Origin: Actinomycetota bacterium
GTDB taxonomy: Bacteria; Actinomycetota; Acidimicrobiia; Acidimicrobiales; Ilumatobacteraceae
Direction of reading: 5' to 3'
Length of the DNA: 48,205 bases
NCBI GenBank assembly: GCA_009702045.1
Contig: WLIV01000026.1
Location: 1 to 48,205, forward strand
A program made the translations under genes and the position numbers. The notes beneath the pieces are model-generated. The model was not told the DNA's origin. It did not search any database and was given only the letters and a program-made list of their open reading frames with translations. Below, in pieces: positions 28,360-44,358 of this stretch. Position 1 is the first letter of the stretch; each line of letters starts with the position of its first letter.

Positions 28360-29343
28360 TTAGGCGTCGACCAACTGACGATCGTCGTTGGCCTCACGAC
28401 TGCCGACATCGATGATCTGCTCGTCGTCCGGCCGGAACTCGTCGGCGGCAGCACCCTCACCGAGTTGGATGCGACGGCGGATACGGAACCGCACCAGGAG
28501 CAGCGCGATGTCGATGACAAGCAACGCGACGAAAGCCAGCAGGAGCCACGGCACGTTCTGCGTGCTGGTGGTCGCCTGTGCACCCATACCGGCTCCGGCG
28601 ACGGCTGCCCTCCAGTTGACGGTGCCCAGCGACGGTGCCGACACCGTGGCGGTCACGGTCTGCTGCCAGGTCTGGCCCGGCAGGATTGTGCCCGGGTCGC
28701 CGAAGTCAGGAACCGCGATATCGCTGTTCCCTCCGCTACCGGCCGACGCGGTCACAGCCAAATGACTGATCGGCGTCGTCGACTGGTTCTTGACCGCAAT
28801 CGTGACGTCGTACGCGGCGCCACCGGCAAGGCTGGCCTTCAACCAACCGGTAACGCCCTTGGGTGCGGCCACTGCGTGGATGGACACTGCGACGCTCGGC
28901 GGCGCGTCGACAGCGTCCACGACTTCAGCCACCGGATGGCCGACGACAGTGACCGCGGAAGTCGCCACCTGATCGTTCATTCGACTTGCGACCCGGATGA
29001 CACACGGGCACGGCGTCGGCGGCGCTGAGATGGGCATGACATCGATCGTGGGCGTTCCGTCCTGGTGCAACGGGCGACCGTCGCTTTGCACCATGTTGCA
29101 GTCGGCTGAGCCACGACGGGCCTCGTTACCGCACACCGAGATCACCACATAGCTCGTGTCGAACCCGGTGATCGTGACGCGCACGGAGTCGCCAACCGCC
29201 AACTTGTCGCGATCGAGTGTGATCTTCGGACCGCTCGTGAACGGTGAGGCTGACGCGATACGCGCCGCCACGCCGTCCACACCGAGCAGACACAGAACAG
29301 CGATGAGGAACCCCAGGAGCCGGGACCGAGATGTAGTCGTCAT
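28360..29343 (-). CDS. Exported, membrane-anchored surface protein
   Basis: 327 aa. Signal peptide (1-33), an N-terminal beta-domain (about 35-135) starting GPKITLDRDKLAVGDSVRVTITGF and holding VISVCGNE and CPCVIRV cysteines, similar in layout to neocarzinostatin/IgG-like secreted actinobacterial domains. A second beta-domain (about 150-260, AYDVTIAVKNQSTTPISHLAV, PGTILPGQTWQQTVTATV) resembles CARDB/DUF11-type stalk domains. One TM (about 270-290) and a basic, then acidic cytoplasmic tail follow. Its start overlaps the DUF916 gene stop (ATGA), so it is last in the surface operon. Function inferred as a cell-envelope structural or binding component. Confidence 0.75.
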   Translation of the reverse strand: MTTTSRSRLLGFLIAVLCLLGVDGVAARIASASPFTSGPKITLDRDKLAVGDSVRVTITGFDTSYVVISVCGNEARRGSADCNMVQSDGRPLHQDGTPTIDVMPISAPPTPCPCVIRVASRMNDQVATSAVTVVGHPVAEVVDAVDAPPSVAVSIHAVAAPKGVTGWLKASLAGGAAYDVTIAVKNQSTTPISHLAVTASAGSGGNSDIAVPDFGDPGTILPGQTWQQTVTATVSAPSLGTVNWRAAVAGAGMGAQATTSTQNVPWLLLAFVALLVIDIALLLVRFRIRRRIQLGEGAAADEFRPDDEQIIDVGSREANDDRQLVDA

Positions 29344-30410
29344 ACGAGCTGCGATTCGCGATCGCCAGCAGGTGATCCGGCAGCGTGCAACGCCGCGTTC
29401 CGGTGGCTGCGCACCCGCAGCACCAAGAGCACCAAGATCAAGATCAGCGCGAGGAACAGCAGGCCCAGCGGCGGGGCGAACGTGGTGTCGTCACCGGCGG
29501 TGACCTTGAGGTTGGCGAGGCCCTCGGCACCGGTCGGTGCAATCTCCACCGTGGTGGAGTCGAGGAACCCGGCCGGCACATCCTTCAGGTCGGCCGACAG
29601 CTCCACCTTTTGCCCGGGGAGCAGCTCTGCGAACGCGGGCAGGGTGATCTTGCGCTCGCCGATGCCGAACGGACCGGACACCGACACCGTGGCGGTGCCG
29701 CCGAGACGGACGTTGCCGCGGTTGACCACCGTGAACGTCACGTGCGTGCTGCCACCGAATGGATTGAGTGAGTGGTGGTAGGTGGTGTCGACCTTGCTGA
29801 CACCCAACTCCGGGAACAGGTCGCCGTTGACCCGCAGGTACAGGCGGGTGCCGGTGCGGCGGTCGAGGGTGATCGTCTGCCCCTGCTCGCCGACGCCCAT
29901 CGTCGGGCTAGAGGCCATGATCGCACCGGCGTAGTCGCCCGGGGCGATATCTGCGGGCACATGAATCGTGATCGGGATCGTGGCTTGTTTGCCGGCCGGC
30001 ACGGTGATCAGGTCTTGGGCGAGCGTCACCCAGGTGCCCGCAACGGTGGGCTGCTGGTCGCCCGGCAACACCTGGAAGGCGCCGGCATTGCCGTTGTAGG
30101 CGTCGGTGGCGTAAAGGCGGAACGTGAGTTGCACCGTGCCGTAGTTGTAGAGGGTGACCGCGTCCTCGATGGTCGCGCCACGGTCAGAGACGTAGGTGAG
30201 CTCGGGCCGGTTCCCGGCCTGCGACGGGTCGAGCGAACCAGCGGGCGCGAGCGCCCAGCTCTCCTCGACGACGGGGTCGCCGGTTCCGGCAGCCGTGGCC
30301 GGCGCGGTCGTCGGCGGTGCAGGCGGCACCGAAGCATTCACCGTGCCGGAGAACGCGAGAAGAGCCACCGGTGCGGTGGCCCACGATGCGAGGTGTCGCC
30401 TGATGCTCAT
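29340..30410 (-). CDS. DUF916/WxLIP-like anchor protein
   Basis: 356 aa. Signal peptide (1-27), Thr/Pro-rich start, a DUF916-like domain (about 55-180: RGATIEDAVTLYNYGTVQLTFRLYATDAYNG, VTVPAGKQATIPITIHVPADIAPGDYAGAIM), a second beta-domain (about 200-310: THVTFTVVNRGNVRLGGTATVSV), one TM (about 315-335) and a short basic tail. In Firmicutes, DUF916 proteins (WxLIP) bind peptidoglycan and WxL proteins. Here it follows a WxL-like gene, which supports the same pairing. A strong hairpin separates the two and may set their ratio. Confidence 0.78.
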   Translation of the reverse strand: MSIRRHLASWATAPVALLAFSGTVNASVPPAPPTTAPATAAGTGDPVVEESWALAPAGSLDPSQAGNRPELTYVSDRGATIEDAVTLYNYGTVQLTFRLYATDAYNGNAGAFQVLPGDQQPTVAGTWVTLAQDLITVPAGKQATIPITIHVPADIAPGDYAGAIMASSPTMGVGEQGQTITLDRRTGTRLYLRVNGDLFPELGVSKVDTTYHHSLNPFGGSTHVTFTVVNRGNVRLGGTATVSVSGPFGIGERKITLPAFAELLPGQKVELSADLKDVPAGFLDSTTVEIAPTGAEGLANLKVTAGDDTTFAPPLGLLFLALILILVLLVLRVRSHRNAALHAAGSPAGDRESQLV

Positions 30411-30516: not shown

Positions 30517-32253
30517 TCAGATGACGTCGAAGGTCAGCGTTGCCGAGTAGTTACCGCTGATGGCCTCGATCGGGATGAGGAGCGTCAGCGGGGCGGCGAG
30601 CACGGCGATGCCGAGGCCATGGCCAGCAGCTGCCGAAGCCAGCGGCTTCTTGGCTGCGTTGAGGCCGGTCAGCTTGGCCGGGGTGACCGCGGCGCCAGCC
30701 GACACGACCTGCGTGTAGCCGGTGATGCTGGCCGGGGTGCTCGTGGTAACTGCCGGGGTCCAGCCGAGGTAGTTACCGCTGAACGAGTTGCTGCCACCAT
30801 CGGTGAAGTTGGTGACGCTGCCCTGGACGGTCCAGCCGCCATCGGTGTCACGGGTGTCCACGACGGTGATCGCGTTGATCGCACCAGTTGCCTTGAAGAA
30901 CTGACCTGCCTGGGCGCCAGTCGTCAGCAGGGCGGCGTTGCCGAGTGCCAGACCGCAGTGGGTCGGGTAGATCGCGGCCGACGTCTGATCAGCGTTCACC
31001 GGGTACGGGTACTGGGTGAACCCCGGGTCAGCGACACCGAGCTTCGTGGGGGCGGTGGAGCCGGCGCAGACCTGCGTCAGCACCAAGGCGCCCACGGGGC
31101 GGGTGACGGTGATGTCCTGGATCAGCACCTGGGCTGCCAGCGGGACGGCGCTCGTCGAGGCACCGGTCGCCGAGTACGGCGAGGTGTACGACGGGGTGAC
31201 CGTGATGGCGTAGTTCAGACCAGCGGTGAGGCTGCTGAGCGTCGTCGTCTCCGTGGCGCCGGCGCTGGTGAAAGCGACGGTGAACGGCGAGCCGGCGATC
31301 GGCGTGCTGGCCTGGGTGACAGCCACCTGGTAGTTGTTCGGCACGTGGTCCGAGACACCGGTGAAGCTCAGTGCGATGGCGCCCGTGGCCGGGGTGGCCA
31401 CGAGGCTCGTCACTGCGTTGTACGGCAGCGGGTTGGGCGTACCGTTCACCGAGTTCGAGGCAACGCTGTTACCCACCGTGTTCGTCGCCACGATCGTCAC
31501 CGCGTACTGGGTGCCGTTCGCGAGGCCGGTCTTGGTGAACGTCGTGACACCCGCGCCGAGTGACGCGGTCAGGTCGGAGCCCGATGCCGGGTGGAACGTC
31601 ACGGTGTAGCCGGTGACCGCCGGGTCGGCCGTCGCCTGCGTGAACGAACCGGCCAGCGAGCCGTCGTTAGCCGTCAGCGTGCCGCCGAGCACCGGGGCGG
31701 CCGGAGCCGTACCGAGCACCCACGCCAGCGTGCTGGCGTTGGTGATGGTGAGCTTGGTCTCCCAGAAGTGACCGGCGTCGAGGGCGCCGCTCGAGCTCAG
31801 GTTGGCGCAGAAGATGCCGAGCTTGTAGGCACCCACGGGGGCGCCGGCGAGGCTCGACAGGTTCACCTGCGTGATACCCGAGATGAGGCCCACCGGCGAA
31901 GCCGACGGGTTCTTGGTGCCGAGCACGTTGCCGGAGATATCGGTGAGCTGGCTGGCGTAGCTGCCGCCGGGGACGTTGCCGATGGTGCCGGCGTTGAACG
32001 TCAACGTCGAGGCATCGGTGGCGGCCGCGACGAAGTACGAATCCCAGCGGTAGTTGCTCGAACCGGAACCCGAGCAAGCTGCGCCAGCGGGCAGGCTGAT
32101 GTTGAAGTTGGTGGAGCCCGTACCGCTGGACACCGACAGGGTGGCAGCACCCTGGGCGGCGACCGCGGACGCAATGCTGGGTGTGCCGAGGACGGCGAAG
32201 CCGGCCACTGCTGCACCGAGCGCTGCGAGGCAGCTGATGGTCTTGCGAATCAT
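30517..32253 (-). CDS. WxL-like surface protein with FN3 domains
   Basis: 578 aa. Signal peptide (1-32). A domain at about 38-180 (LPAGAACSGS, YRWDSYF, GLISGI, GAYKLGIFC, FWETKLTI) is shared with two other proteins in this locus. Two fibronectin-III-like repeats follow (about 183-275 and 278-372). The C-terminal ~200 residues look like a WxL domain: ITVVDTRDTDGGWTVQGSVTNF (counterpart of the WxL motif) and the terminal YSATLTFDVI (counterpart of the YxxxLTWxL motif). No TM, so attachment would be through the WxL-like domain, presumably to the DUF916 protein and peptidoglycan. Likely an abundant, non-covalently attached wall protein; what it binds is unknown. Confidence 0.75.
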   Translation of the reverse strand: MIRKTISCLAALGAAVAGFAVLGTPSIASAVAAQGAATLSVSSGTGSTNFNISLPAGAACSGSGSSNYRWDSYFVAAATDASTLTFNAGTIGNVPGGSYASQLTDISGNVLGTKNPSASPVGLISGITQVNLSSLAGAPVGAYKLGIFCANLSSSGALDAGHFWETKLTITNASTLAWVLGTAPAAPVLGGTLTANDGSLAGSFTQATADPAVTGYTVTFHPASGSDLTASLGAGVTTFTKTGLANGTQYAVTIVATNTVGNSVASNSVNGTPNPLPYNAVTSLVATPATGAIALSFTGVSDHVPNNYQVAVTQASTPIAGSPFTVAFTSAGATETTTLSSLTAGLNYAITVTPSYTSPYSATGASTSAVPLAAQVLIQDITVTRPVGALVLTQVCAGSTAPTKLGVADPGFTQYPYPVNADQTSAAIYPTHCGLALGNAALLTTGAQAGQFFKATGAINAITVVDTRDTDGGWTVQGSVTNFTDGGSNSFSGNYLGWTPAVTTSTPASITGYTQVVSAGAAVTPAKLTGLNAAKKPLASAAAGHGLGIAVLAAPLTLLIPIEAISGNYSATLTFDVI

Positions 32254-32316: not shown

Positions 32317-33684
32317 TCAGGCCGACGCAGCGTCGGAGCCCCAGGCCTTGGTCAGGCTGTAATCGCCGCAGTTGCTGATCTGGCCGAAGCCGAACTTCTC
32401 GATGACGGTGCTGTTCTGACACAGCTTCGAGGAGTTGTTAGCCGAGGTGTTGTTCGGGGCGCCCGCGGTGCCGTTGGCGGCAACGTTGGTGTCGAGGAAC
32501 AACGCCACGAGGCCGTTGGTCAGCGTGAAACCGGTGCCGGTGTTGATGATCGACGAACGCTTGAACACGTTGTACACGTCACGGCCGACGCCGGCGCTGG
32601 CGTAGAACGTCAGGTTCGGGGCCAGGTTCGGGGCAGTGCCGGTGGTCGGCGAGCCGAGGTCTGCGCCGCCGGTGCCGGTGGTGCCATCATCGCTGATGCC
32701 ACCGAGGGTCACGTTGGTGTAGCCGTTCGGATCGGAGACCCCGTTGGCCTGGGCGATGTAGCCAGCAGCCGACATCGGAGCGATGACGACGAGCTGGGTG
32801 TCAGCCGTGTAGGCACCGGCGCCGAGCGTGCCGGCGTAGAAGGCATCGCCCTTGGCTTTGAGCTGATCGCCCTTGCTCTCCTGCAGACGGTTCACTTCCG
32901 CCGGGGTGCACAGGGCGACTGCTGCTTGCTCAGATCCGGTGCTGGCGAGCGTGACGATGGTCTTGAAGAACGACATCGTGCCGGACGACGTCTGCACGCC
33001 GCAGGGGACGATGGTGACGGTGCCAGTGCCGTCCGGGTCGGCCACGGTGACGCGGGTGGCGCTGGCGTAGGCGTCGATCAGGTTCTTACGGGTGAGCGTG
33101 GCGAGTGCCGCGCCGCCACCGGGACGGTAGGAGATGTAGGTCACGGCGTCACGGCCGAACGGCACGTACACCTCGTCGGTGCCAGTTGTGGTCCCCACCG
33201 ACGACGAGCGAGCGAAGTTCACCGCACCCGAGATGTTCACCAGCGTGGCGCAGGTGGGCAGCACAGTGCTGTTGTCGAGAGTGAACGACGCGCCGGTCCA
33301 GCCGAGGCCAACACCCGAAGTCGCCTGGTACAGGGCCTTACGACCGGCACCCGAGCCGTTCGGGCGGGTGAAGGTCGGTCCGTTGAGCACGGGAGTGATG
33401 CAGTTGTCACCGGCGGTCTGTGCCGGGGCTGCGTTGAACGAGATGATGTGCTTGTAGCCGGTGGCCGAACCCGAGTTGATTGCGTTGTAGTCCAGGCCGT
33501 AGTTGAAGCCCGACATCGCGTTGATGACGTCCTGGGTGGTGTCCGAACCCATGCCGACGTACGCGTCGAGCTGGGTCGGGTCGGCCTTGACCGAGGAGAT
33601 ACCGGAGCCCATGGTGAGGCCGGCGGCCAGCGTGGCAGCGATCAGGCCGAGACCCACTCGCTTCGTGGTGGAAGAAGTCGACAT
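32317..33684 (-). CDS. Phosphate-type periplasmic binding protein-like
   Basis: 455 aa. Signal peptide (1-34). The mature start YVGMGSDTTQDVINAM and later GTDEVYVPFGRDAVTYISYRPG and VVIAPMSAAGYIAQANG match the PstS-like PBP fold found in exported actinobacterial proteins (GSDT loop as possible anion-binding site). Six Cys are in the mature part. No TM or lipobox, so it is probably secreted or held by partners. A PHO-box-like repeat lies 77-104 bp upstream of its start, between it and pstB. It is 63 bp before the WxL-like gene, suggesting co-transcription. The start is the ATG at 33684 (MSTSSTTK); the upstream 42 codons overlap the PHO box. Confidence 0.75.
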   Translation of the reverse strand: MSTSSTTKRVGLGLIAATLAAGLTMGSGISSVKADPTQLDAYVGMGSDTTQDVINAMSGFNYGLDYNAINSGSATGYKHIISFNAAPAQTAGDNCITPVLNGPTFTRPNGSGAGRKALYQATSGVGLGWTGASFTLDNSTVLPTCATLVNISGAVNFARSSSVGTTTGTDEVYVPFGRDAVTYISYRPGGGAALATLTRKNLIDAYASATRVTVADPDGTGTVTIVPCGVQTSSGTMSFFKTIVTLASTGSEQAAVALCTPAEVNRLQESKGDQLKAKGDAFYAGTLGAGAYTADTQLVVIAPMSAAGYIAQANGVSDPNGYTNVTLGGISDDGTTGTGGADLGSPTTGTAPNLAPNLTFYASAGVGRDVYNVFKRSSIINTGTGFTLTNGLVALFLDTNVAANGTAGAPNNTSANNSSKLCQNSTVIEKFGFGQISNCGDYSLTKAWGSDAASA

Positions 33685-33748
33685 TGTGTTGTTGGTTCCC
33701 TTCGGGTGACGGATGCCCAGGGGTTTGCGACCCGAGCGAGCGTCACTC

Positions 33749-33788
33749 TGACAGCCCAACTTGACGACAAACTGACCGCCAGATGAAC
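33749..33788 (-). promoter_or_regulatory. Candidate PHO box (PhoP-type direct repeats)
   Basis: On the minus strand, GTTCA, GGTCA and CGTCA begin 11 nt apart (plus-strand TGAAC at 33784, TGAC at 33773 and 33762), with a fourth GTCA after 13 nt (33749-33752). Eleven-base spacing of (G/T)TCA repeats is the hallmark of PhoP/PhoB sites. It lies in the 148-bp gap after pstB and would control the genes from 33684 downward. Confidence 0.65.
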
Positions 33789-33832: not shown

Positions 33833-35134
33833 TCACCCGAAACGCCCGTTGACGTAGTCGAGCGTTCGCGGATCCTGCGGCGATGCGAACATCGCGTCGG
33901 TGGGGCCATGCTCCACGATCACACCGGGAGTTCCTTGCTCTGCAAGGAAGAACGCACACTGATCGCTCACGCGCGCAGCCTGTTGCATGTTGTGTGTGAC
34001 GATCACGATCGTCACCTCCGCGGCCAGGTCGATGATCGTTTCTTCGATGCGTCGCGTCGACGTCGGATCGAGTGCAGAGCACGGTTCGTCCATCAACAAC
34101 ACGCGCGGCTTGATCGCCAACGCGCGAGCGATGCACAGACGCTGCTGCTGCCCACCGGACAGACCGCCACCGGGCTGACGCAGCCGATCCTTGACCTCGT
34201 TCCACAGCCCGCCCTTGGTGAGGCACGACTCCACGGTCTCGTCCTTCACCGACTGGCTGGCCTTCACACCCGTGAGGCGGAAGCTGGCGAGCACATTGTC
34301 GTAGATCGACATCGCCGGGAACGGGTTCGGCTTCTGGAACACCATGCCGATCTCGCGGCGGGCATCGGTGAGCTTGCGCTCGGGGTCGTAGATGTCGTGC
34401 CCGTCGAGCAACACGTGGCCGGCCATCGATGCCGACGGGATCATTTCGTGCATGCGGTTGAGGATGCGCAGGAACGTCGACTTGCCACAGCCCGACGGAC
34501 CGATCAGCGCGGTCACCTTGCCGGCCGGCATGTCGAGCGACACGCGGTCGAGCACGTTGTGCGTACCGAACCAGGCGGAGATGTTGCGCGCGTGCAGACC
34601 TGCCAGCGCGCTCGGCACAGTGCCCGTTGCCGACTGCACGGGCGGCGAGGCGATCGGGTGCGTCACCATCGGCGGGGCTACCGACGGCAGCGGGGCGATG
34701 GGCGGCGGCGTCAACTCGGGCAGCACCGGCGCGGTTCCGTCGACGCGACCGTCCTGATCGCGCACGTTCACACCAGGCAGGCTGTCGATCACGCGGCGGA
34801 ACTCGTCGACTCGTTCATCGGGCAACGTGACGCCGAAGTCGGAGATTCCCGGCACCTCGAACACCGTCCACGCGCCACGAGCGCTGTGCACCGCCCCGAC
34901 CAGTTCGTCGACGAGCCATGACCATTCGAACTCGCCATCGATCGCGCTGATGCGCTGATGGGTGACGGTCACGGTGGCGAGATGCAGCGTCGACACCTCC
35001 GCATCGGCATCCGTTGCGCCGCCAGTGACGACCTGCACCACCGCCGCATTGGGGAACACGCCGAGGACGTGCTCGACCGGTGTGTTGTCGCCCGAACGGG
35101 GCATCCGTGACGTGTAGTGCAGGTCGGTGTTCAT
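33833..35134 (-). CDS. pstB: Phosphate ABC transporter ATPase with N-terminal extension
   Basis: 433 aa against about 255 for ordinary PstB. Residues about 180-433 are a complete PstB: Walker A GPSGCGKST (212-220), NPFPAMSIYDNV, signature LSGGQ (325-329), Walker B RVLLMDEP (344-351) and VTHNMQQAARVSD. Residues 1-133 form an unrecognised alpha/beta domain (EWSWLVDELVGAVHSARGAWTVFEVPG), and 134-178 a Pro-rich linker. GAGGAG 6-8 nt upstream supports the ATG at 35134, so the extension is really translated. pstB follows the sortase-like gene by 17 bp rather than sitting beside pstA. Confidence 0.92.
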   Translation of the reverse strand: MNTDLHYTSRMPRSGDNTPVEHVLGVFPNAAVVQVVTGGATDADAEVSTLHLATVTVTHQRISAIDGEFEWSWLVDELVGAVHSARGAWTVFEVPGISDFGVTLPDERVDEFRRVIDSLPGVNVRDQDGRVDGTAPVLPELTPPPIAPLPSVAPPMVTHPIASPPVQSATGTVPSALAGLHARNISAWFGTHNVLDRVSLDMPAGKVTALIGPSGCGKSTFLRILNRMHEMIPSASMAGHVLLDGHDIYDPERKLTDARREIGMVFQKPNPFPAMSIYDNVLASFRLTGVKASQSVKDETVESCLTKGGLWNEVKDRLRQPGGGLSGGQQQRLCIARALAIKPRVLLMDEPCSALDPTSTRRIEETIIDLAAEVTIVIVTHNMQQAARVSDQCAFFLAEQGTPGVIVEHGPTDAMFASPQDPRTLDYVNGRFG

Positions 35135-35151: not shown

Positions 35152-36108
35152 TCACAACAGGTTGGGCAGGAGGCGCGCGGCCTCCCCGCTCGCGGCGAGG
35201 CCGACGAGCAACAGGGGCGGCAGGAACACGACCCACGTCTGGGCGCGACCCCAGCGGTGCCACGACCAGACCGCGCCGATGGACAAGATGATCAGCGCTT
35301 GCAACCAGAAGGCCAGCACCCACAGCGTGCGCGAATCGCCGGCCATCACGCGTTCCTGCGACGGCAGACCGGCGGCCGACACCAACCGCCGCGGGCCCAC
35401 GACTGGAGTGCCGTCGAGGTCGGCGTCGACGCGCAGCGCGCCCTCGGGCATGAACGCCCGGCCGGCAGCGGTGACGAGCGTGATCCGCGACGAACCCTTG
35501 GCCGCAGGGGGCGGAGTCGGGTCGCCATCACGGCGTACGCCGAGCACCTTGTACAGGAAGACACCTTGGCCGGTGGTGACCGTGATCGCATCACCCTTGT
35601 GCAGACCGTCGATGTCGGCGAATGGCCCGCCGAACGATGCCCGCCGACCCATGACGACACTGGTGCCGAGTTGTCCTGGCAACGGTGTGTCGCGGCTGTG
35701 GCCGGGACCGGTCATCAACACCCCCGACGTGGTGCCCTCACCGATTACCTGGTGCAGACCGATCGACGGGATCTCGAGATACGCGACTGGCGTGCCGAGC
35801 GCGATGACCGTGCCGGCTTCGTTCATCGGGCCGATGGCGACAGTGCCCAACGCCAGCTGCTCGCGGAAACCGTCGAACGCTCGGGCCTGCGACGCATGCT
35901 GCTGGAGGCCGCTGATGAGCACCATCTCCAACAGCAAGGTGAACGACAACACGAACGCCAAGAGCAGCGCCGAGCGCACCAGTTGCAACTTCGAGCCCAG
36001 CGGTGGCACCGAGGGGCGCTCCGCGACCGAGCGCGAACGAGCCGACCGTCGGGCAGAACGGTCGGCGGGTTCGGCCTGCGAACGGCGCAGTGTCACCGTG
36101 GCGGTCAT
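35152..36108 (-). CDS. Sortase-fold protein lacking catalytic His and Cys
   Basis: 318 aa. One N-terminal TM (about 45-66), a sortase domain (about 95-235) and two C-terminal TMs (about 262-284, 291-308). The fold is plain: AYLEIPSIGLHQVIGEG, GPGHSRDTPLPGQLG, FGGPFADIDGLHKGDAITVTTGQGVFLYKV, ITLVT. At the catalytic His (AGHR in active sortases) it has MGRR with Arg155, and at the catalytic Cys (LxTC) it has LVTA with Ala214; the Arg (226, ALRVDADL) remains. It cannot do transpeptidation by the known mechanism. It is coupled by ATGA to a protein with a VPVTG sorting-like tail and precedes pstB by 17 bp. A binding or scaffold role is inferred. Confidence 0.8.
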   Translation of the reverse strand: MTATVTLRRSQAEPADRSARRSARSRSVAERPSVPPLGSKLQLVRSALLLAFVLSFTLLLEMVLISGLQQHASQARAFDGFREQLALGTVAIGPMNEAGTVIALGTPVAYLEIPSIGLHQVIGEGTTSGVLMTGPGHSRDTPLPGQLGTSVVMGRRASFGGPFADIDGLHKGDAITVTTGQGVFLYKVLGVRRDGDPTPPPAAKGSSRITLVTAAGRAFMPEGALRVDADLDGTPVVGPRRLVSAAGLPSQERVMAGDSRTLWVLAFWLQALIILSIGAVWSWHRWGRAQTWVVFLPPLLLVGLAASGEAARLLPNLL

Positions 36109-36944
36109 CGCGCCCTGGGCGGCAGCACCTTGACGCGCCGTCCGGAGAGCAGGGCCATACGTCCCATCACCAACACCAGCAGCGCCCACATCGCCACGAC
36201 GGCCGGGTTCGTGCCGGTGACCGGCACCTGACCGCTCGAGTCGACGGCGGTCGTGGTGGTGATGATTGCGACGGTGGTGACGGTGGCTGCCGCGGTGGTG
36301 ACGGGTGCGGTGGTGGTCGGCGCAGTAGTGGTGGTGGTGGTCGGCGCCGCGATGTCCCACTGGATACCCAATGGTGTGTCCTGCACGTTGGCGGTCACTG
36401 TGATCGTGGCCACCCAGAACTCCTGGGTCGCTCCGCTGAACTGACAGGCGATACCGATCTTGTAGTCGCCGACCGGCAGCGAAGCGAGTGTTCCACCCAG
36501 CGAGGTCTCCGGAATGCCGGAGATCAGGCCCAGCGGGCTGTTGCTCGGTTGCTTGGTGGACACCGGGTCGCCGATGGTGGAGTACAGCCTGGACACGAGG
36601 GCACCGGCGACAGCATTCGGCCCGTCTGCCCAGGTGAGCGTGGCGGGGTCGACCGAGGCGGAGACAATGAACGATTCCCAGCGGTAGCCGCTGGCGCCAC
36701 TGCCCTGGCAGTGCCCACCACTGGGCAGTTGCATGGTGAACGCCCCGCTGCCGCCTGTGGTGGTGGGGCCGTTGCCGTCGATGAACGACACGGCACCGGT
36801 CGGGGTTCCAGAGGCGTACGTGCGACCGGCGACTCCTGCGGTCAAGCCGACGACGCTGATCGCGAGCATCACGCTCGCGAACGCTGTACCCAACCGTGCG
36901 GCGCGCACGCGGCCGAGGCCGGTGGTCCGAGCGATGCGATTCAT
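36105..36944 (-). CDS. Surface protein with shared domain and VPVTG tail
   Basis: 279 aa. Signal peptide (1-45); the shared domain at about 56-197 (LPSGGHCQGS, YRWESFI, GLISGIPETSLG, VGDYKIGIAC, FWVATITVT); a Thr-rich stalk (201-233); then VPVTG (240-244), one TM (248-266) and a basic tail (GRRVKV). The last three parts have the architecture of an LPXTG-class sorting signal with V in place of L. A catalytic sortase is not present in the window, only the degenerate one translated next. Start at 36944 is favoured because AAGGAG sits 5 nt upstream; an ATG 3 nt earlier is also possible. Confidence 0.78.
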   Translation of the reverse strand: MNRIARTTGLGRVRAARLGTAFASVMLAISVVGLTAGVAGRTYASGTPTGAVSFIDGNGPTTTGGSGAFTMQLPSGGHCQGSGASGYRWESFIVSASVDPATLTWADGPNAVAGALVSRLYSTIGDPVSTKQPSNSPLGLISGIPETSLGGTLASLPVGDYKIGIACQFSGATQEFWVATITVTANVQDTPLGIQWDIAAPTTTTTTAPTTTAPVTTAAATVTTVAIITTTTAVDSSGQVPVTGTNPAVVAMWALLVLVMGRMALLSGRRVKVLPPRAR

Positions 36945-37735
36945 CATGACTCCTTCTTCTTCAGGTTTCCGGCGACGCGGTGACGCCACAGCAGGAACAA
37001 CACGAGCACTGCCGCGCCGAACACGACGAACAGCACCCAGGACTTGGACGAGGACGGCTTCGACGCAGCGACCTGTTCGGGCGTCACTGTCGGCAGCGAC
37101 CACGTCAGCGACTCCGGGTGTCCGTCGACCGCAACAGTGAGATCGATCTGCACATCCCAGAACTGGGTGGTCTGGTTGAAGTACGTGCACGCAACACCCA
37201 GGCGGTAGTGGCCGCCGGGAAACTGGTTCTGAGCGATGACGATGAAGCTGGTCTGGGGGATGGCGCCGATGAGCGCCGGGCTTCCAGGAGCCGGGTTGCG
37301 GCGCAGGAACTGCGTGGCCATCGGCATTTGCTTGGCATTCTCGAACAATGGGTAGCGGCCCGAGGTCCACGGCGGCTCGGGGCCGGTGCTGCTGTAGATC
37401 ATCTGCATCGGGTCTTCATTCACCGGAATGAGGAAGCTGTTCCAACGCCACTGATCGTTGGCGCTGTCGCCTGGGCAGGTGGCGCCGTCGGGCAGGTGCA
37501 CCAAGAAGACCGTGTTGCCGTCACCCTCGCGCAGGACGTGGCCGGTGGTGTCCTGCAACACCACGTCACCAACGCGCCCGGCGACCTGATCGGCGGGGAT
37601 CGTCGGCCCGGATGGCGGCACGGTGGTGGCCGGGCTCGCCGCCAGTGCGACGAGTGCCGGCACCACCAGCAGCGAAACGGCCGCGACGAGCAGTCCCGTC
37701 AGGCACATCGAGCGGGTGTTCGGTCGGCAGTTCAT
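36944..37735 (-). CDS. Membrane-anchored surface protein with shared domain
   Basis: 263 aa. Signal peptide (1-32), shared domain at about 60-216 (LPDGATCPGD, QWRWNSFLI, LIGAIPQTSF, GGHYRLGVAC, FWDVQIDLTV, ESLTWSLP), a short linker, one TM (about 232-250) and a Lys-rich tail (KKKES). This copy is the most diverged and has an insertion of about 15 residues around 115-140. No sorting motif: it would remain a TM-anchored protein with its domain outside the cell. Its start and stop codons both overlap the neighbouring genes by 1-4 nt. Confidence 0.75.
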   Translation of the reverse strand: MNCRPNTRSMCLTGLLVAAVSLLVVPALVALAASPATTVPPSGPTIPADQVAGRVGDVVLQDTTGHVLREGDGNTVFLVHLPDGATCPGDSANDQWRWNSFLIPVNEDPMQMIYSSTGPEPPWTSGRYPLFENAKQMPMATQFLRRNPAPGSPALIGAIPQTSFIVIAQNQFPGGHYRLGVACTYFNQTTQFWDVQIDLTVAVDGHPESLTWSLPTVTPEQVAASKPSSSKSWVLFVVFGAAVLVLFLLWRHRVAGNLKKKES

Positions 37736-40419
37736 AGTTCCGGAACCTCGTGGTCGATGAGGATGTCTGCGGCCGACCTTGCGCGCCGCGGTCGCTTGCT
37801 GATCTCGAGCGCGCCCATCGCTGAGCCCAGTGCAGCAATCCCCAGCCCGACGACCGTGTACCTGCCACCGCCGACGTTCACCGACGGTGTCGGCACGGCA
37901 GCGATAGTGGTCGTGGTGGTCGGTGCCGAACTCGTGGTGGTGGTGGTGCTGACCTCGACCGGCGTGGTCTCCTCCGTGACCGGCGGGGGTTCGGCCGTGG
38001 TGCCGCCTCCTCCCGAGGAGGTGCGGCGCGTCGTGACCGGTGGTTCGCTCTGCGTCGTCACCGTCGTGGTGGGCACCGGCGGCATCGAGAGCACCTGCGC
38101 GATGGCGGCGTCCGATTGCGCCTTCAGCGCGCTCGGCAACGGCGCGTAGCCACGAGGTAACTGACCGGCCTGCACACCCACCACTTGGCCAGGCCCGACT
38201 GCGTAGGTGAGAAACGCGGCGTAGTTCGCCCGTGCGGTCGTGTCCAGCGAGAGCGGTTTGACGGCCGCGTAGCTGAGCATCGTCAGCGGATACGCACCGT
38301 CGGTCAGGGTTCCCGGCGCTGGTTCCAGCACGCTGGGGTCGGCTCCCGGCTGCATCGCCGTCACCCCGGCCAGCAGACCCGCCGTGTCGGGGGCGATGAA
38401 CTGACGTCCGGCACCATCGTCACCGGCACGACTGAGGTGGGCCGTCTGCACGCCGAACTGGAAGGCACTGGCGGTGTCGGTGAGCGACAACATCATCTTG
38501 CGACCGATGAACTGCGGCTGACCCTTGGACCACACACCCGACGACGACAGCGCAAGAGAGTTCTCGTTGATCTTGGCTGCATCGAACGCGGCCCGTGCAA
38601 TGCGGGCCGTATCGCGGTAGTTGCGGGCGTACGGCATCCAGTCGGTGCCACACAGCGGCGGCGGGATGATCGAGTTGTTCGGGCCGCGCGGCGCACCTTG
38701 GAAGCAGTACGGGTCGGCCTTGGGGAAGCTCTGCGGCACCGGGGTGTCGAACGCCGTGTGCGTGGGGTTCAGGCTCGCGTCAGTGCTGTACATCGGGTTG
38801 ACCCTCATCCCCCACGCGTCAGGTGTGCCGTTCAACCACGCCTTGGCCTCCGGGTCGGCGAACACCCACCGCCACAGTTGCTGGGCGGCATCGGAGGTGG
38901 CCGAGGGCAACTGCAGCCCGCCGAAGCTGCGATCATCGCTGGAGAGCAGCAGCGTGAACTCCGGGTTGAATTGCAAGAAGTCCGGGTCGGTCATCATCGA
39001 CAGCGGGTTGTTCGCTGCCCAGGTATAGGTCGGCGGCAGGGTGCCGGTGATCGCCACCTGTTGGAGGTACGACTGCGCCAGCAACTTGGCGACCAGACGG
39101 GGCGTCAGGTTCATCTGCGCGACGCGCATACCGGAGAGTGCCGCCTCGTCGATGTTGCCCGACTTCGTGTTGCGCTCGACATTGAAACCGATGGTGAGGC
39201 CCGACACACCGACCGGCACATAGACGACAGGGCTCTCTGGATCGAGCTGCGTGTCCTCGAACGGCTTGGAGACCACCACCATGCCCGGGCCACCCTCGAC
39301 GGACTGAGCGAGCTGTTGGCGAGCCGCTGCGTCCCCGACCGAGACATACGAGTACGGCGGCAACGTGCCGCTCGCGCACAACACCGGCTGCCAACTTGAG
39401 ACAGCTGGCTGGATGAGGTCGGAGCCAGCGATGCGCCGCTCCTGCTGGCCAGCAACACACGATGCATCCAGCGGCTGGAACTCGAGCGGGATCGCGATGC
39501 GGTGCTGCCATACCGATGCACGCATCGGGGACGTGACGACCGGGGTGGATGCACCGAAGCCGGCGAAGGGCGTCCCTGCGTTCTCGGCGGCTGCGGTGCC
39601 GCGGGGCACGATGACCAGCCAGCACTTCGGGATCTTGGTTCCCCCACCGGCGACCGGCTGCACACTCTGCCCGCAGCCAAGACCCGACGATTGTTGCCCG
39701 GTGTGCACCTCGAACAACTCGGCACCCTTGCCATCGGCATAGGTGCGGCCACCGGCGATCTCATTGGTGGTGGTGGCGTTGAAGAACGAGTTCAGCCAGT
39801 AGTTGCCGCCCTGGTTGGTGCCGGGGCTGAAACGCGAGTTCGTCTGGAAGGGCACGGTCTCGCCCGTGACGGAGCGGAACGGGCGCCACACCTGACCATC
39901 GTTCATGTCGACGACGCCGTCGGTGAGGTCGAGCCCCGGCCAGCCGACGACACCGATCACGCGACCGACCGCGTTACCGTCGGGGTAGATCGAGGCCGGC
40001 GGCGCGGAGATACTCCCGACCCCGCCGAACACACACTGCTCGGGCGGCGGGCCGGGGTTGGCCACATTGGTGCCATCATCCTCGCCCCAGCACTGCATGA
40101 TCTGCAGGAAGTTCCCCGAGAACGTGCCCGGGCTGGTGACGGTGGGGGCGGCTCCTGTCCAGGTGAGCGACACGGTCTGGTTGGTGAGGTTCGTGGTCTG
40201 GTTCACCGTGACCGCGAGAGTGGAGAATGCGTCGCGACCGTTCACCGTGACCTGCGAGTCCGTGGCCGGCAGCGCCGTGTCGGTGCCCTGGCTGCCGACC
40301 AATGGATCGACGATGCTGGGACGCGCGGCCGTGGCCGTGTTGTCAGACGATGGCGCGAACGTCAGGGCCACGATCGCGCCGAGGCCGAGTACCGGCCACA
40401 CGTGTCGACGGGCGCTCAT
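37732..40419 (-). CDS. Giant exported PstS-like protein
   Basis: 895 aa. Signal peptide (1-32), a large N-terminal beta-rich region (about 35-400, with GNFLQIMQCWGEDDG and several Cys), a PstS-like binding domain (about 400-770: VYVPVGVSGLTIGFN, MNLTPRLVAKLLAQSY, NNPLSMMTDPDFLQFNPEF, DGAYPLTMLSYAAVKPL and FLTYAVGPGQVVGVQAGQLPRGYAPLP, the typical PstS C-terminus), a Thr/Pro/Ser-rich stalk (about 780-845), one TM (about 850-870) and a basic tail. It follows pstS with an ATGA overlap. The phosphate-contact residues are not obviously intact, so the ligand may differ from orthophosphate. Likely projects a binding domain away from the membrane. Confidence 0.78.
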   Translation of the reverse strand: MSARRHVWPVLGLGAIVALTFAPSSDNTATAARPSIVDPLVGSQGTDTALPATDSQVTVNGRDAFSTLAVTVNQTTNLTNQTVSLTWTGAAPTVTSPGTFSGNFLQIMQCWGEDDGTNVANPGPPPEQCVFGGVGSISAPPASIYPDGNAVGRVIGVVGWPGLDLTDGVVDMNDGQVWRPFRSVTGETVPFQTNSRFSPGTNQGGNYWLNSFFNATTTNEIAGGRTYADGKGAELFEVHTGQQSSGLGCGQSVQPVAGGGTKIPKCWLVIVPRGTAAAENAGTPFAGFGASTPVVTSPMRASVWQHRIAIPLEFQPLDASCVAGQQERRIAGSDLIQPAVSSWQPVLCASGTLPPYSYVSVGDAAARQQLAQSVEGGPGMVVVSKPFEDTQLDPESPVVYVPVGVSGLTIGFNVERNTKSGNIDEAALSGMRVAQMNLTPRLVAKLLAQSYLQQVAITGTLPPTYTWAANNPLSMMTDPDFLQFNPEFTLLLSSDDRSFGGLQLPSATSDAAQQLWRWVFADPEAKAWLNGTPDAWGMRVNPMYSTDASLNPTHTAFDTPVPQSFPKADPYCFQGAPRGPNNSIIPPPLCGTDWMPYARNYRDTARIARAAFDAAKINENSLALSSSGVWSKGQPQFIGRKMMLSLTDTASAFQFGVQTAHLSRAGDDGAGRQFIAPDTAGLLAGVTAMQPGADPSVLEPAPGTLTDGAYPLTMLSYAAVKPLSLDTTARANYAAFLTYAVGPGQVVGVQAGQLPRGYAPLPSALKAQSDAAIAQVLSMPPVPTTTVTTQSEPPVTTRRTSSGGGGTTAEPPPVTEETTPVEVSTTTTTSSAPTTTTTIAAVPTPSVNVGGGRYTVVGLGIAALGSAMGALEISKRPRRARSAADILIDHEVPEL

Positions 40420-42128
40420 TCGTTGCCCCTGTTCGCGAGGTGCCGCCACACGAGTGCCGGAGCCAGGATCAGCACGAGCGTCAGGCCGATCACCAGCAGC
40501 AACAGCGCAGTGGAAACAGTCCATCCGGATGCTTGGTCCAGTGTCGAGGGCGAGATCGCCCCGACCTCGGCGGCGCTGGGCCCGTCCTGTGAGGAGCCAC
40601 CACCGCCGGAACAGTCGCTCACCGTCGGATCGCACACCTGGTCGCCAGTGCCGTCGCCCGTGGGCACGGTGTCGACGGTGCCGGTGTCGGTGCCAACGGG
40701 CCCGGTATCACCGGTGGCCGAACCTGCCGGAGGCTTGGTTCCACCCGCCTTGACCGTGGTGACCGTGCTGCCGCCGCCGGTCGTCGCGACTGCCTTCACC
40801 GCGGTCTGAACGTTCGACATGCCTCCTGTGCCATTGGGGCACTGGCTGGCGTAGCCCTTCTTGTCGCACGCCTGCGGTTGCGGTGCCTTGGTCGCCAAGG
40901 TGTTGGTGCCGTTGGCCGAGAAGGTGGGGTTGTTGCAGGCCGAGATGTCGACCTCGCGAGCCACCACGCCGGGAATCTTCATGATCTGGTCGAAGCTGGC
41001 CTGCACCAGGTTGATCGGCATCGGCGAGTAACCGAGCGACTCGGACTGTTGTTGCGCCTCACACATCGCGTAGTAGGCGAAGTCACCGAGTGTCTTGCCC
41101 TTGGCCTCGTTGAACTGCCCGGCCACCTTGGTGGGCACGATCAGGTACGAGTACGAGGAGAGTTGGTAGTTGCGCGGGTCGGTGTCGGTGTACACACCTT
41201 CGAGCTTCTGCGTGAGGTACTCCGCCGGGTCACTGGCGTCAGTGTTGATCTGCGCCTTCAGCAACGACACGGCCACGTTCTTCGGTGTCGGCTCGGTGTA
41301 GTAGCCGGCAGCGTTCAACACCTTGGCCACCGGGAACGCTGAACCCAATGCGTAGGAGTAGTTGACGTAACCAATGGCGCCTTCGGCGAAACCTTGGCTG
41401 ATATAACCGGCCACACCGAGGTCGCCAGACTGGGCAATCATGCCGGTGATGGTGGGGTAGAACGAGGTGAAACCGCACGCCGGGGCACGGCCCGAGGTGT
41501 TGCAATACTCGGTCCACAACGCCGGGTACTGGGTGATCATCCACTTCGTGAACTGGGCGCTCGAGCCGGAACCATCAGAGCGCACCACCGGCACCACTGC
41601 CCGGGCAGGCATCACGATTCCAGGGTTGTCGGCTTGGATCGCGGCGTCGTTCCACATCTTGATCTTGCCGGTGAAGATCTTCACCACGTTCTCACCGGAA
41701 AGGCGCAGGTTGGTCACCCGCTTGCCGTTGATCTTCAGGTTGTACATGAACGACGTGCCGCCGGCGACGACGGGGATGTACGCATAGCTGTCCGGTGCCG
41801 GGTTCTCCGGCGCCGAACCATCCTCGGGACGGAACTGGAACGGGATATCGGAGGCGGCGAAGTCGACCGTGCCGTTGAGGAAGTTCTTACGACCGGCGCT
41901 GGAACCACTGGGGTTGTAGTCGACGACCATGCCCTTGTTCGACTGCACGTTGACTCGCATCGCCTCGAGCGCGTTGGCGGCCCACGACGAACCCTCACCG
42001 GAGATGCGCTGATAGGCGAGCAGTGCGTCGGCCTGCTGATGCGGCGCGGCAGAGACCGCGGCCACGAGAAAGGCGACGACCATCAGCAGCGCACTGCGAC
42101 GACCGGGTCGATGTGTACGGGGGTTCAT
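40416..42128 (-). CDS. pstS: Phosphate-binding protein PstS, TM-anchored
   Basis: 570 aa. Signal peptide (1-36) without a lipobox Cys; PstS fold about 40-400 with ISGEGSSWA, YNPSGSSAGRKNF, DFAASDIPF, RSDGSGSSAQFTKWM and GAIGYVNYSYAL, which carry the phosphate-contact loops. A linker rich in Gly, Thr and Asp (about 440-530) and a C-terminal TM (about 537-560) replace the usual lipid anchor. So the substrate-binding domain hangs on a stalk rather than on lipid. It delivers phosphate to PstC/PstA, encoded just upstream with ATGA overlap. Confidence 0.92.
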   Translation of the reverse strand: MNPRTHRPGRRSALLMVVAFLVAAVSAAPHQQADALLAYQRISGEGSSWAANALEAMRVNVQSNKGMVVDYNPSGSSAGRKNFLNGTVDFAASDIPFQFRPEDGSAPENPAPDSYAYIPVVAGGTSFMYNLKINGKRVTNLRLSGENVVKIFTGKIKMWNDAAIQADNPGIVMPARAVVPVVRSDGSGSSAQFTKWMITQYPALWTEYCNTSGRAPACGFTSFYPTITGMIAQSGDLGVAGYISQGFAEGAIGYVNYSYALGSAFPVAKVLNAAGYYTEPTPKNVAVSLLKAQINTDASDPAEYLTQKLEGVYTDTDPRNYQLSSYSYLIVPTKVAGQFNEAKGKTLGDFAYYAMCEAQQQSESLGYSPMPINLVQASFDQIMKIPGVVAREVDISACNNPTFSANGTNTLATKAPQPQACDKKGYASQCPNGTGGMSNVQTAVKAVATTGGGSTVTTVKAGGTKPPAGSATGDTGPVGTDTGTVDTVPTGDGTGDQVCDPTVSDCSGGGGSSQDGPSAAEVGAISPSTLDQASGWTVSTALLLLVIGLTLVLILAPALVWRHLANRGNE

Positions 42129-43336
42129 ACGTTCACCTGTCCGGGATGTGCCTGGATACGTTCGAGATCGCGTATGGACTTCGCCGCCGCCTTGCGCGCC
42201 TGTCGCTTGGAGAGACGACCAACCGGACGACCACCGAGCACACGAGCGATGGTGAACAGCACCAGCACCAGCACCATCAGCACGGCTGCCGTGGCGAAGC
42301 CCCGGGCCACTTGTGTGGGCTGCGGCGAGCGCACCAGTTCGAAGGCTGCGAGCGGCAACGACACCATCGGACCCTTCATCGGATTGACGTTCATCGTCGA
42401 GGTGAAGCCAGCGGTCAACAACACCGGGGCCGTCTCGCCGACACCGCGGGCGACGCCGAGGATCACCGAGGTGGTGAGGCCAGAACGGGCGGTCGGCAGC
42501 ACCACATGCCACACCGTGCGCCACTGCGGTGCACCGAGCGCCGCCGACGCTTCACGCAGGCCACCGGGCACCAAGCGCAACACCACGTCGGCCGAACGGA
42601 TGATGATCGGCAACATCATGATGCTCATCGAGATCGCCGCTGCGAGACCCGACCGCTCGAAACCGAGCACCAGGATCCACGTGGCGAAGATGAACAGACC
42701 GGCCAGGATCGAGGGCAGTGCAGTCATGGCGGTCACCACAGTGCGCACCAACGTCGCGAACCAGTTGCGGGTCTCGTTGAGGAACACCGAGCAGGCCACG
42801 CCCAGCGGCACGGTGATGAGCAACGCGATCGTTGTCATGATCACGGTGCCGGTGATCGCGTGGGTGATGCCACCCTTACCGAGCGGGTCGAGCGGGCCGG
42901 TACTGCTGAGGTCGGTGGAGAAGAAGTTCGAATGGAACAACGCCTTCGAACCACGCATGATCGTGAACACGATCACCGAGAACAACGCGGCGAGCGCCAC
43001 GAGCGCTGCGGTGGTGAGCATCACACCCATCACACGGTCGACGACCGCCGGGCCATCCTCGGTGGTGGCGACCAGCACCGCGTAGGTGCAGAGGAACACG
43101 AGGAAGAACACGACCACGAAACCGAAGTCGCCGGACAGCGGTGTGAGACGCCCGAACAACAGCATCGTCGTGCACCACGCGCTGAACAGACCGCCGGCGA
43201 GCGGCATGATGTCGTTGCGCGAGAGCTTCCCGAGCGAGCGCCGCTCCGGCAGTGACGCCAACTGCTCGGGGCGTGGCGGGAGCACCGTACGCGGAACGGT
43301 GTCGCCGGACGGCGTGTCGTGCAGCAGCGGGGTCAT
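42125..43336 (-). CDS. pstA: Phosphate ABC transporter permease PstA
   Basis: 403 aa; longer than the common ~300 because of an N-terminal cytoplasmic tail and two extra TM segments (about 55-100). The permease core has GTVIMTTIALLITVPLGVACSVFLNE, PSILAGLFIFATWILV and the EAA-like loop REASAALGAPQWRTVWHVVLPTARSGLTTSVILGVARGVGETAPVLL. A basic C-terminal tail (KRQARKAAAKSIRDLERI) may contact the ATPase or its extra domain. Start MTPLLHD at 43336 overlaps the PstC stop by 4 nt. Confidence 0.93.
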   Translation of the reverse strand: MTPLLHDTPSGDTVPRTVLPPRPEQLASLPERRSLGKLSRNDIMPLAGGLFSAWCTTMLLFGRLTPLSGDFGFVVVFFLVFLCTYAVLVATTEDGPAVVDRVMGVMLTTAALVALAALFSVIVFTIMRGSKALFHSNFFSTDLSSTGPLDPLGKGGITHAITGTVIMTTIALLITVPLGVACSVFLNETRNWFATLVRTVVTAMTALPSILAGLFIFATWILVLGFERSGLAAAISMSIMMLPIIIRSADVVLRLVPGGLREASAALGAPQWRTVWHVVLPTARSGLTTSVILGVARGVGETAPVLLTAGFTSTMNVNPMKGPMVSLPLAAFELVRSPQPTQVARGFATAAVLMVLVLVLFTIARVLGGRPVGRLSKRQARKAAAKSIRDLERIQAHPGQVNV

Positions 43337-44358
43337 GCGTCGCTGCTCGCTCCGGAACGCGACCGCGCCACGAACCACGATGCGGTGAAGTTGACCACGA
43401 GGGTGACGGCGAACAGTACGAGGCCGGCGGCCATCAACGCCGAGAGGCCGAAGCCGGTGGCTTCGCCGTAGCGCAGGGCAATGAGGCTGGACACCGAGTT
43501 ACCGCCAGCCTCGAGGATGTGGAAGTTGATGTCGAAGCGCGGTGAGATGATCAACAGCACGGCGATCGTCTCGCCGAGCGCCCGACCTAGGCCGAGCATC
43601 GTGCCGCCGATGATGCCGCCGCGGCCGAACGGCAGGGCGACGACGCGGATCATGCCCCAGCGGGTGGAGCCGAGTGCGAACGCACCTTCACGCTCACCGA
43701 TGGGTACCTGCGAGAACACCTCACGCATCACCACGCACTGAATGGGCATCACCATCATCGCCACGACGACACCGGCGATGAACGCAGACGCGGTGTAGAC
43801 GGTGGAACTTGCGAGTGGGCTGTTCGGGTCGGCGCCGGTCACCTTGAAGATGGGGATCCAGCCGAGCCAGGTGTTGATGAAGCGGGAGACGCCGATGATC
43901 TGACCCTGCAGCAGGAACAGACCCCACAGGCCGTAGACCACACTGGGCACCGCGGCCATCAGATCGACGAGGGCGACGAGCGTGGCGCGCAGCCACTTCG
44001 GGCAGACCTCGGTGATGAACAGCGCAGTACCCATCGAGATCGGGAGGGCGATCGACACCGCCACAGCGGCGATGAGCACGGTGCCCAGCAGCACGGACGC
44101 GATACCGAACTTGCCGCGGTCGGGTTGCCAATCGGAGGTGGTGAGGAACGACAGACCCGTTGCCCGCAGCGCGTCGGTTGCCTCGTAGGCGAGGAACGCT
44201 CCGACGGCCACCATGATCGAGAGCACCAGGGCCCCGCTCATTGACGCGCCGCCGTAGAAGATGCGGTCGCCGCGGTTACGCGCGGCCTTCACCTTGCGCG
44301 GCGCGTGATCTGCCGCGGCGATGTCCGGTGCGGCCGGAATGGTGGTGATGCCGGACAT
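43333..44358 (-). CDS. pstC: Phosphate ABC transporter permease PstC
   Basis: 341 aa with six TM segments. The signature parts are GTVLIAAVAVSIALPISMGTALFITEVCP, VPSVVYGLWGLFLL and the EAA loop GEREGAFALGSTRWGMIRVVALPFGRGGIIGGTMLGLGRALGETIAV. It pairs with PstA to form the phosphate channel. The long periplasmic loop near TM4 (WIPIFKVTGADPNSPLASSTVY) is typical. It starts 3 nt after the coiled-coil membrane protein gene and is coupled to it. Confidence 0.93.
   Translation of the reverse strand: MSGITTIPAAPDIAAADHAPRKVKAARNRGDRIFYGGASMSGALVLSIMVAVGAFLAYEATDALRATGLSFLTTSDWQPDRGKFGIASVLLGTVLIAAVAVSIALPISMGTALFITEVCPKWLRATLVALVDLMAAVPSVVYGLWGLFLLQGQIIGVSRFINTWLGWIPIFKVTGADPNSPLASSTVYTASAFIAGVVVAMMVMPIQCVVMREVFSQVPIGEREGAFALGSTRWGMIRVVALPFGRGGIIGGTMLGLGRALGETIAVLLIISPRFDINFHILEAGGNSVSSLIALRYGEATGFGLSALMAAGLVLFAVTLVVNFTASWFVARSRSGASSDA

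Follow-up and report, generated by a model that had tools for sequence, protein, structure and literature searches.

A conserved branch of class E sortases with a replaced catalytic triad is associated with pst genes in Actinomycetota

Sortases are enzymes that fix proteins to bacterial cell walls. Analysis of the 48,205-nucleotide stretch of DNA studied here (the window) revealed a gene whose product carries a sortase domain but lacks the catalytic residues, and which is positioned within a group of pst genes. This raises the question of what a sortase fold without its catalytic centre does beside a Pst transporter. The gene, located at positions 35152 to 36108, encodes a protein of 318 amino acids, here called the pseudosortase. 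These coordinates, already given in the initial annotation, are correct; the coding strand is the minus strand (36108-35152), and a reading of the plus strand gives a different frame.

The proposed sortase fold was borne out by a match of the protein to the Pfam Sortase model PF04203 (52.7 bits, cut-off 26.6) and by overlay of its predicted structure on known sortases; conservation in the family also supports the gene. An AlphaFold2 model generated from an input of 66 family sequences had a mean pLDDT of 92 and a pTM of 0.83. Superposition (Foldseek/VIA) on SrtE1 from S. coelicolor (5cuw) gave a Z of 15.4 with an rmsd of 2.4 over 131 residues, and superposition on the class D sortase 4d70 gave a Z of 18.4 with an rmsd of 2.9 over 153. 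By its fold, the window protein belongs to the sortase superfamily. The model places an N-terminal transmembrane (TM) helix inside a helix of residues 39-87 and two hydrophobic C-terminal helices at residues 261-286 and 288-313; the sortase beta-barrel, delimited by the model and the SrtE1 superposition, spans about residues 104-236. The C-terminal TM pair had been regarded as a special feature. It was rejected as a distinguishing one, since the same segment is aligned in 14 of 17 relatives with an intact triad. The class E model NF033747 of NCBIfam matched the window protein at 65.3 bits, below its cut-off of 160; at an E value of 0.001 or less, it matched all 66 members of the pseudosortase family. 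The NCBIfam search with the window protein returned no model specific to pseudosortases.

Alignment with the 17 triad-intact relatives placed Arg155 (codon 35644..35646, minus strand) in the column of the catalytic His (His251 in SrtE1) and Ala214 (codon 35467..35469, minus strand) in the column of the catalytic Cys (Cys320 in SrtE1), as the initial annotation had read them. The column of the catalytic Arg (Arg329 in SrtE1), absent from that annotation, is occupied by Ala224 (codon 35437..35439, minus strand). Hence, each of the three residues that characterize a class E sortase enzyme, His, Cys, and Arg, is replaced in the window protein. Displacement of the catalytic His and Cys to other positions, named beforehand as an outcome that would overturn this reading, was rejected. 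The framework columns are aligned, and the protein contains no Cys residue at all, so that a displaced Cys nucleophile is impossible.

A sortase-like match was found in 56 of 61 genomes (the window's own and 60 relatives). Thirty loci were read among these genomes, and they comprised 13 pseudosortases and 17 proteins with His and Cys. Of these 13 pseudosortases, one is the window's own, ten are full orthologues with 48-64% identity, and two are more remote relatives with 37-38%. Each of the 13 has Arg in place of the His; in place of the Cys, 11 have Ala and 2 have Ser. Within the genus, 15 genomes including the window's own gave a full copy in 7, an edge fragment in 1, and no close copy in 7. 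A 27-residue fragment at G009:C329:6137-6217 is 96% identical to the C-terminus of the window protein and is probably what the assembly left of a very close relative. A scan with one genome per species was then evaluated for the best 80 of 88 passing loci, many pseudosortase loci being contigs of metagenome-assembled genomes (MAGs). Among these 80, the His site was Arg in 77, Lys in 2, and His in 1, with the Arg count partly selected by one of two DNA patterns, which contained [GA]RR; the Cys site was never Cys. According to their titles, all of the best 80 of 88 loci belong to Actinomycetota, e.g., Streptomyces, Kitasatospora, Amycolatopsis, Saccharothrix, Agromyces, Microbacterium, Nocardioides, Actinoplanes, and Bifidobacteriaceae.

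Because of the [GA]RR pattern, profile searches free of a GRR requirement were added, with profiles built from the pseudosortase family itself. In 296 genomes of the phylum, 27 of 30 listed loci were readable, and nine of them have Arg or Lys at the His site and no Cys (G000, G003, G225, G288, G251, G257, G061, G076, and G339). In 395 genomes of the class, the 30 loci listed comprised 24 with Arg or Lys together with A, S, G, T, M, or V at the Cys site, five with H-C-R (residues at the His, Cys, and Arg sites), and one unscorable locus (L215). Another 395 genomes were drawn from the phylum, in part the same as before; the loci read there added one new exception, L246 (F-T-R). The matches read at the top of the profile-search lists were all pseudosortases with Arg or Lys and without Cys. 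The residue counts of the family search and the profile searches refer to loci that were read, and lower-scoring matches without a locus mostly stand outside them. Scores did not separate pseudosortases cleanly from triad-intact sortases, as G339 (R-S-L, 154.6 bits) lies below several H-C-R proteins. The exception L246, also recovered as L268 (genome G722), has Phe in place of the His and Thr in place of the Cys and keeps the Arg; its 19.6-kb region contains no Pst genes, and it possibly represents an independent triad loss outside Pst loci. In the pair of loci L112 and L113, the pseudosortase under the title Rhodococcus rhodnii is 97% identical to the one from Kibdelosporangium aridum; the Rhodococcus record may carry a wrong label, or a gene transfer may have occurred. 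The window protein is not a decayed copy; it belongs to a branch of the class E sortases that is widespread in Actinomycetota. The homologue search by HMM, suggested in the initial annotation, did find relatives that keep Arg (or Lys) and a non-Cys residue beside pst genes.

The tree was calculated from 74 branch rows and 32 triad-intact rows and is read as unrooted. At the His site, the branch rows have Arg in 71, Lys in 2, and His in 1 (Arg or Lys in 73/74), whereas the 32 triad-intact rows, picked by a GHR pattern, have His by selection. At the Cys site, all 74 branch rows carry Ala (58), Thr (6), Ser (6), or Gly (4), against Cys in 32/32 triad-intact rows; the catalytic Arg is found in 6/74 branch rows and 32/32 triad-intact rows. 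This pattern of triad replacement is far beyond chance. With all columns, one split separated branch rows from triad-intact rows (SH-aLRT 97). When the triad columns were removed, row L139 lay outside the branch in the free tree, and the tree with the 74 rows held together had the higher likelihood (pAU 0.92); when two long rows were left out, a single split with a support of 95 was obtained. Six divergent branch rows keep the catalytic Arg, and one of these (L122, H-T-R) also keeps the His. Triad loss therefore exists in grades, and the states H-T-R, R-S-R, and R-A-V occur within the branch. The dN/dS ratio was 0.03-0.32 in 13 close pairs. The triad loss is fixed in orthologues under purifying selection, and the protein is a conserved pseudoenzyme. 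A decaying sortase remnant was rejected on the basis of these ratios and of the conservation. Homologues in the form of random decayed copies, which would have contradicted the initial annotation, were not what the comparison gave, and the selected non-enzymatic role that it suggested is supported.

All genes of the window operon lie on the minus strand, in the order pstC, pstA, pstS1, pstS2, orfA, orfB, pseudosortase, pstB, pstS3, a gene for an fn3/WxL-like protein, a gene for a WxLIP-like protein, and a gene for a further TM-anchored protein. The permease genes pstC (43333..44358) and pstA (42125..43378) were assigned by sequence similarity and position. At 44362-45256 (minus strand), an ORF whose product has a hydrophobic C-terminus ends 3 bases before pstC, so that the operon may begin further upstream. 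PstS1 (40416..42104) carries the motif RSDGSGS and a C-terminal TM and matches TIGR00975 at 176.9 bits (cut-off 205). PstS2 (37732..40422) is a protein of 896 amino acids in which the PstS fold (residues 326-784) is preceded by an additional N-terminal part, and a TM lies at the C-terminus. Sequence comparison revealed that orfA (36944..37735), which encodes a secreted protein of 263 amino acids with a C-terminal TM, is related to orfB. The product of orfB (36105..36944) is a secreted protein of 279 amino acids that ends in a VPVTG motif (codons 36213..36227), a TM, and a basic tail, as read from the ORF and the relatives' sequences. The sorting-like tail on the adjoining gene had been noticed before, and the stop of orfB indeed overlaps the start of the pseudosortase gene by 4 bases (36105-36108).

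Directly downstream of the pseudosortase gene, pstB (33833..35131) encodes an ATPase that matches TIGR00972 at 340.5 bits (cut-off 343.2). Its N-terminal extension comprises about 180 amino acids, and tblastn suggests the same in several loci of the class. The PstS3-like protein (32317..33687) is secreted, has no TM, and carries the motif QTSSGT; it has no family match of its own, and its relatives have PstS-family matches. Upstream of pstS3, at 33760-33788 (minus strand), lies an 11-base-spaced repeat (GTTCATCTGGC GGTCAGTTTGT CGTCAAG), which resembles the PHO box of Streptomyces. Across the window, repeats of this kind gave 4 matches against 1.74 expected, which is not significant. The fn3 protein (30517..32253; fn3 E value, 2.4e-10) has a weak WxL-like C-terminus (E value, 0.0018, below cut-off), and the WxLIP-like protein (29340..30407) has a C-terminal TM and a WxLIP_PGBD match with an E value of 1.5e-4, also below cut-off. 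The last gene (28360..29343) encodes a TM-anchored secreted protein that is kept with the operon in several relatives; a WxLIP label for it is a guess. The ten orthologous loci have the same order where contigs permit, with additional orfA/orfB-like copies in some. Elsewhere, the window's genome contains a separate pstS-C-A-B locus, followed by PhoU-like, sensor-kinase-like, and response-regulator-like genes (named by eye from their sequences). The presence of this ordinary pst locus makes the window operon a second Pst system. The genome also contains three other sortase-domain genes, each with His and Cys.

The link to the Pst complex that the initial annotation had considered was confirmed by the surroundings of the family. 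Among the best 80 of 88 loci, a strict Pst gene was found in 79 and a PstS-like gene in the remaining one, which brings the count to 80/80. A strict pstB was found in 77/80, and PstS-like genes were found in 64/80, many of these loci being short; the nearest Pst or PstS-like gene lay at a median of 129 and at most 3782 bases. In contrast, Pst genes were found in 0/20 regions around triad-intact sortases, each of which holds at least one H-C-R sortase. Three more triad-intact regions (L166, L171, and L172) also contained no Pst genes. The class and phylum searches contributed another 20 loci, and in 17 of them strict Pst or PstS-like genes were located near the pseudosortase; two of the other three are cut by contig starts and had none at threshold, and the third, L268 (F-T-R), had none. 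Divergent loci commonly show a PstS-like gene followed by the pseudosortase gene, often oriented divergently from pstC-A-B-S. A plasmid search with an Agromyces homologue gave one weak match. These results indicate that the pseudosortase is constantly associated with pst genes.

The gene directly upstream varies. An upstream ORF, picked by TM score, was available in 57 of the best 80 of 88 loci, and 23 were unscorable. A C-terminal TM was present in 50 of the 57 products, of which 21 also carry an LxxTG-like motif and 29 do not, and absent from 7, with the calls for L076 and L079 (both LxxTG) and L105 doubtful in detail. Besides the window's class, some loci of Actinoplanes, Saccharothrix, Allonocardiopsis, and Streptomyces have LxxTG-tailed proteins, and the tail motifs of the orfB orthologues include VPVTG, LPGTG, LSATG, LVVTG, LPTTG, LASTG, and LARTG. 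In tblastn searches of the best 80 of 88 loci, homologues of orfA were found in 19 and of orfB in 15, those most like the window. With LxxTG in just 21 of 57 upstream proteins, the VPVTG tail is a lineage feature, and it was rejected as a universal partner. In the more divergent branches, the upstream neighbor is a PstS-like protein. In G061, this neighbor is a PstS that matches TIGR00975 at 127 bits and carries the motif RSDGSGT; the stop of its gene shares 4 bases with the start of the pseudosortase gene. The PstS-like neighbor at L164:7195-9021 has an N-terminal neocarzinostatin-like domain (PF00960; E value, 1.2e-7). The gene immediately before the pseudosortase in Agromyces and others encodes a WxLIP-like or other TM protein and not PstS2, so that the direct partner may differ.

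Superposition of window PstS2 (37732-40422) on PstS3 (4lvq) gave a Z of 31.1 and an rmsd of 2.5 over 309; in a Pfam search, PstS2 had no match of its own. PstS1 of the window carries a phosphate motif (RSDGSGSS), the PstS phosphate motif being RxDGSGT. A regular-expression search for RxxGS[GA][TS] gave no match in PstS2 and 38 homologues (0/39). The motif was found in three of nine divergent loci tried (L164, L259, and L249), and a match in L256 looks spurious. In L122, which has the least altered triad (H-T-R), and in several others, the upstream protein has no phosphate motif. Motif loss and triad loss are therefore not strictly parallel, and a strict parallel was rejected.

Comparison of 66 core pseudosortase rows with the 32 triad-intact rows (positions in window numbering) revealed a remodelled active-site groove. 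Arg or Lys occupies position 138 in 82%, position 139 in 98%, position 155 in 100%, and position 192 in 94% of the core rows; position 139 is mostly Pro and position 155 is His in the triad-intact rows. Position 196 is mostly Asp (Pro in 31/32 triad-intact rows), position 153 is bulky (mostly Ala), position 201 is mostly Pro or Ala (mostly Val), and position 224 is mostly Val or Leu (Arg). Substrate-contact roles are ascribed to SrtE1 Tyr229, Ala249, Pro293, Val298, and Arg329 in PMC5148588, in which Tyr229 of the b3/b4 loop is the proposed reader of LAXTG. Our own mapping along the alignment places these five residues at positions 138, 153, 196, 201, and 224, respectively. Tyr229 is replaced by Ser138 in the window protein and mostly by Arg in the branch. 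The replacement of most mapped contact positions argues against sorting-signal binding in the manner of SrtE1 and in favor of a new surface for a ligand. Among the branch-specific positions of this comparison, none stood out as a newly conserved nucleophile. Judged from topology, the arginines would cluster at the rim of the old active site.

The fold is kept by selection beside Pst genes and the catalytic centre is lost, so that the protein is probably a non-enzymatic part of the transporter. We consider it probable (about 0.58) that the pseudosortase is a non-catalytic, membrane-embedded accessory subunit, with a scaffold or docking function, of a specialised second Pst-type ABC transporter. 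Its barrel would sit outside the membrane. The remodelled rim with arginines at 138, 139, 155, and 192 (Ser138 in the window) may be where a TM-tethered surface protein encoded in the operon docks. Gene order and topology suggest that the docked partner was originally a PstS-like protein, held beside PstC and PstA. The pseudosortase would keep this membrane-anchored partner at the membrane, with neither cutting nor transfer to the wall, and additional LxxTG-tailed and WxL-like proteins would have joined the system in the window's class. A more specific version of this scheme is less probable. The groove may have been rebuilt as an Arg-lined pocket for anions or acidic peptides, and a pair of dead enzyme and dead receptor, i.e., the pseudosortase and the motif-less binding protein, may assemble or gate a membrane-tethered Pst transporter, in which case the family would be a previously unrecognised one.

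Two other functions appear unlikely, to about the same degree. The old groove might bind LxxTG-type tails, such as VPVTG of OrfB, without cleavage and either present them to an active sortase or retain them. The overlap of orfB with the pseudosortase gene, the LxxTG-like tails of the orthologues, and the tail called in 21 of the 57 scorable loci fit this explanation, and the three sortases with His and Cys encoded in the genome could act on such a tail. However, 29 of the 57 upstream proteins are TM-anchored without LxxTG, the SrtE1 contact sites are mostly replaced, and divergent branches pair the pseudosortase with PstS-like proteins. Holding the VPVTG tail, which the initial annotation had offered, thus does not stand as a general role. 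Alternatively, an anion sensor would bind phosphate, or a lipid or polymer that bears phosphate, in its Arg-lined pocket and would either signal to the transporter or gate it. Such a sensor would account for the Arg or Lys gained at the four rim positions in the core rows and for the linkage to Pst genes. Arginines could equally bind acidic peptides or pack structurally, however, and the window protein has Ser138.

That the protein is still an enzyme, with another nucleophile or other chemistry, is very improbable. Several intermediates do combine Ser at the Cys site with a kept Arg (R-S-R), but the window protein has Ala214 and no Cys. Moreover, the Cys site varies among A, T, S, and G and also M and V in further relatives, the His site is Arg or Lys nearly throughout, and the branch-specific positions offer no substitute nucleophile. 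We give still less credence to a functionless remnant. Loss of the triad and the patchy occurrence within the genus would be expected of one, but the frames are open, residues have been newly fixed, dN/dS is low, and the gene is kept in conserved operons over many genera. If the accessory-subunit reading holds, the sortase fold, which otherwise serves an enzyme that anchors proteins, has here become part of a transporter. The sortases would gain a conserved pseudoenzyme branch in which graded stages of triad loss stand side by side, and the Pst systems would gain a type whose binding proteins are tethered to the membrane and degenerate. A match to the Sortase domain above the Pfam cut-off could then belong to a catalytically dead protein.

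Known systems share parts of this arrangement. The pseudosortase has the fold of class E sortases (SrtE1, 5cuw; NF033747), their framework motifs GPGH, PG..G, and G.PF, and the C-terminal segment found in most of the triad-intact relatives. Class E sortases keep His, Cys, Arg, and the specificity Tyr, whereas all four are replaced in the pseudosortase, which in addition has a GVRRxGDPxP-like stretch in the b6/b7 region and is linked to Pst, unlike the triad-intact sortases with their 20 Pst-free regions. Like PstSCAB transporters, the window operon combines PstC-, PstA-, and PstB-like genes with a PstS that carries the phosphate motif; it differs from them in that its binding proteins are anchored through a C-terminal TM, that its second PstS lacks the motif, and that additional secreted subunits and the pseudosortase are present. 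WxL/WxLIP surface-protein loci occur in Firmicutes. The window locus resembles them in its weak WxL and WxLIP matches, which are below cut-off, but it is actinobacterial and joined to Pst. Among open-licence PMC papers, no pseudosortase family or example of a dead sortase was found described, which is no proof of absence. Dead paralogues elsewhere, such as the prozyme (PMC6221367), likewise keep their fold, lose catalysis, and take a new role in a complex. Among the sortases, this Pst-linked and conserved branch of pseudoenzymes within class E appears to be new.
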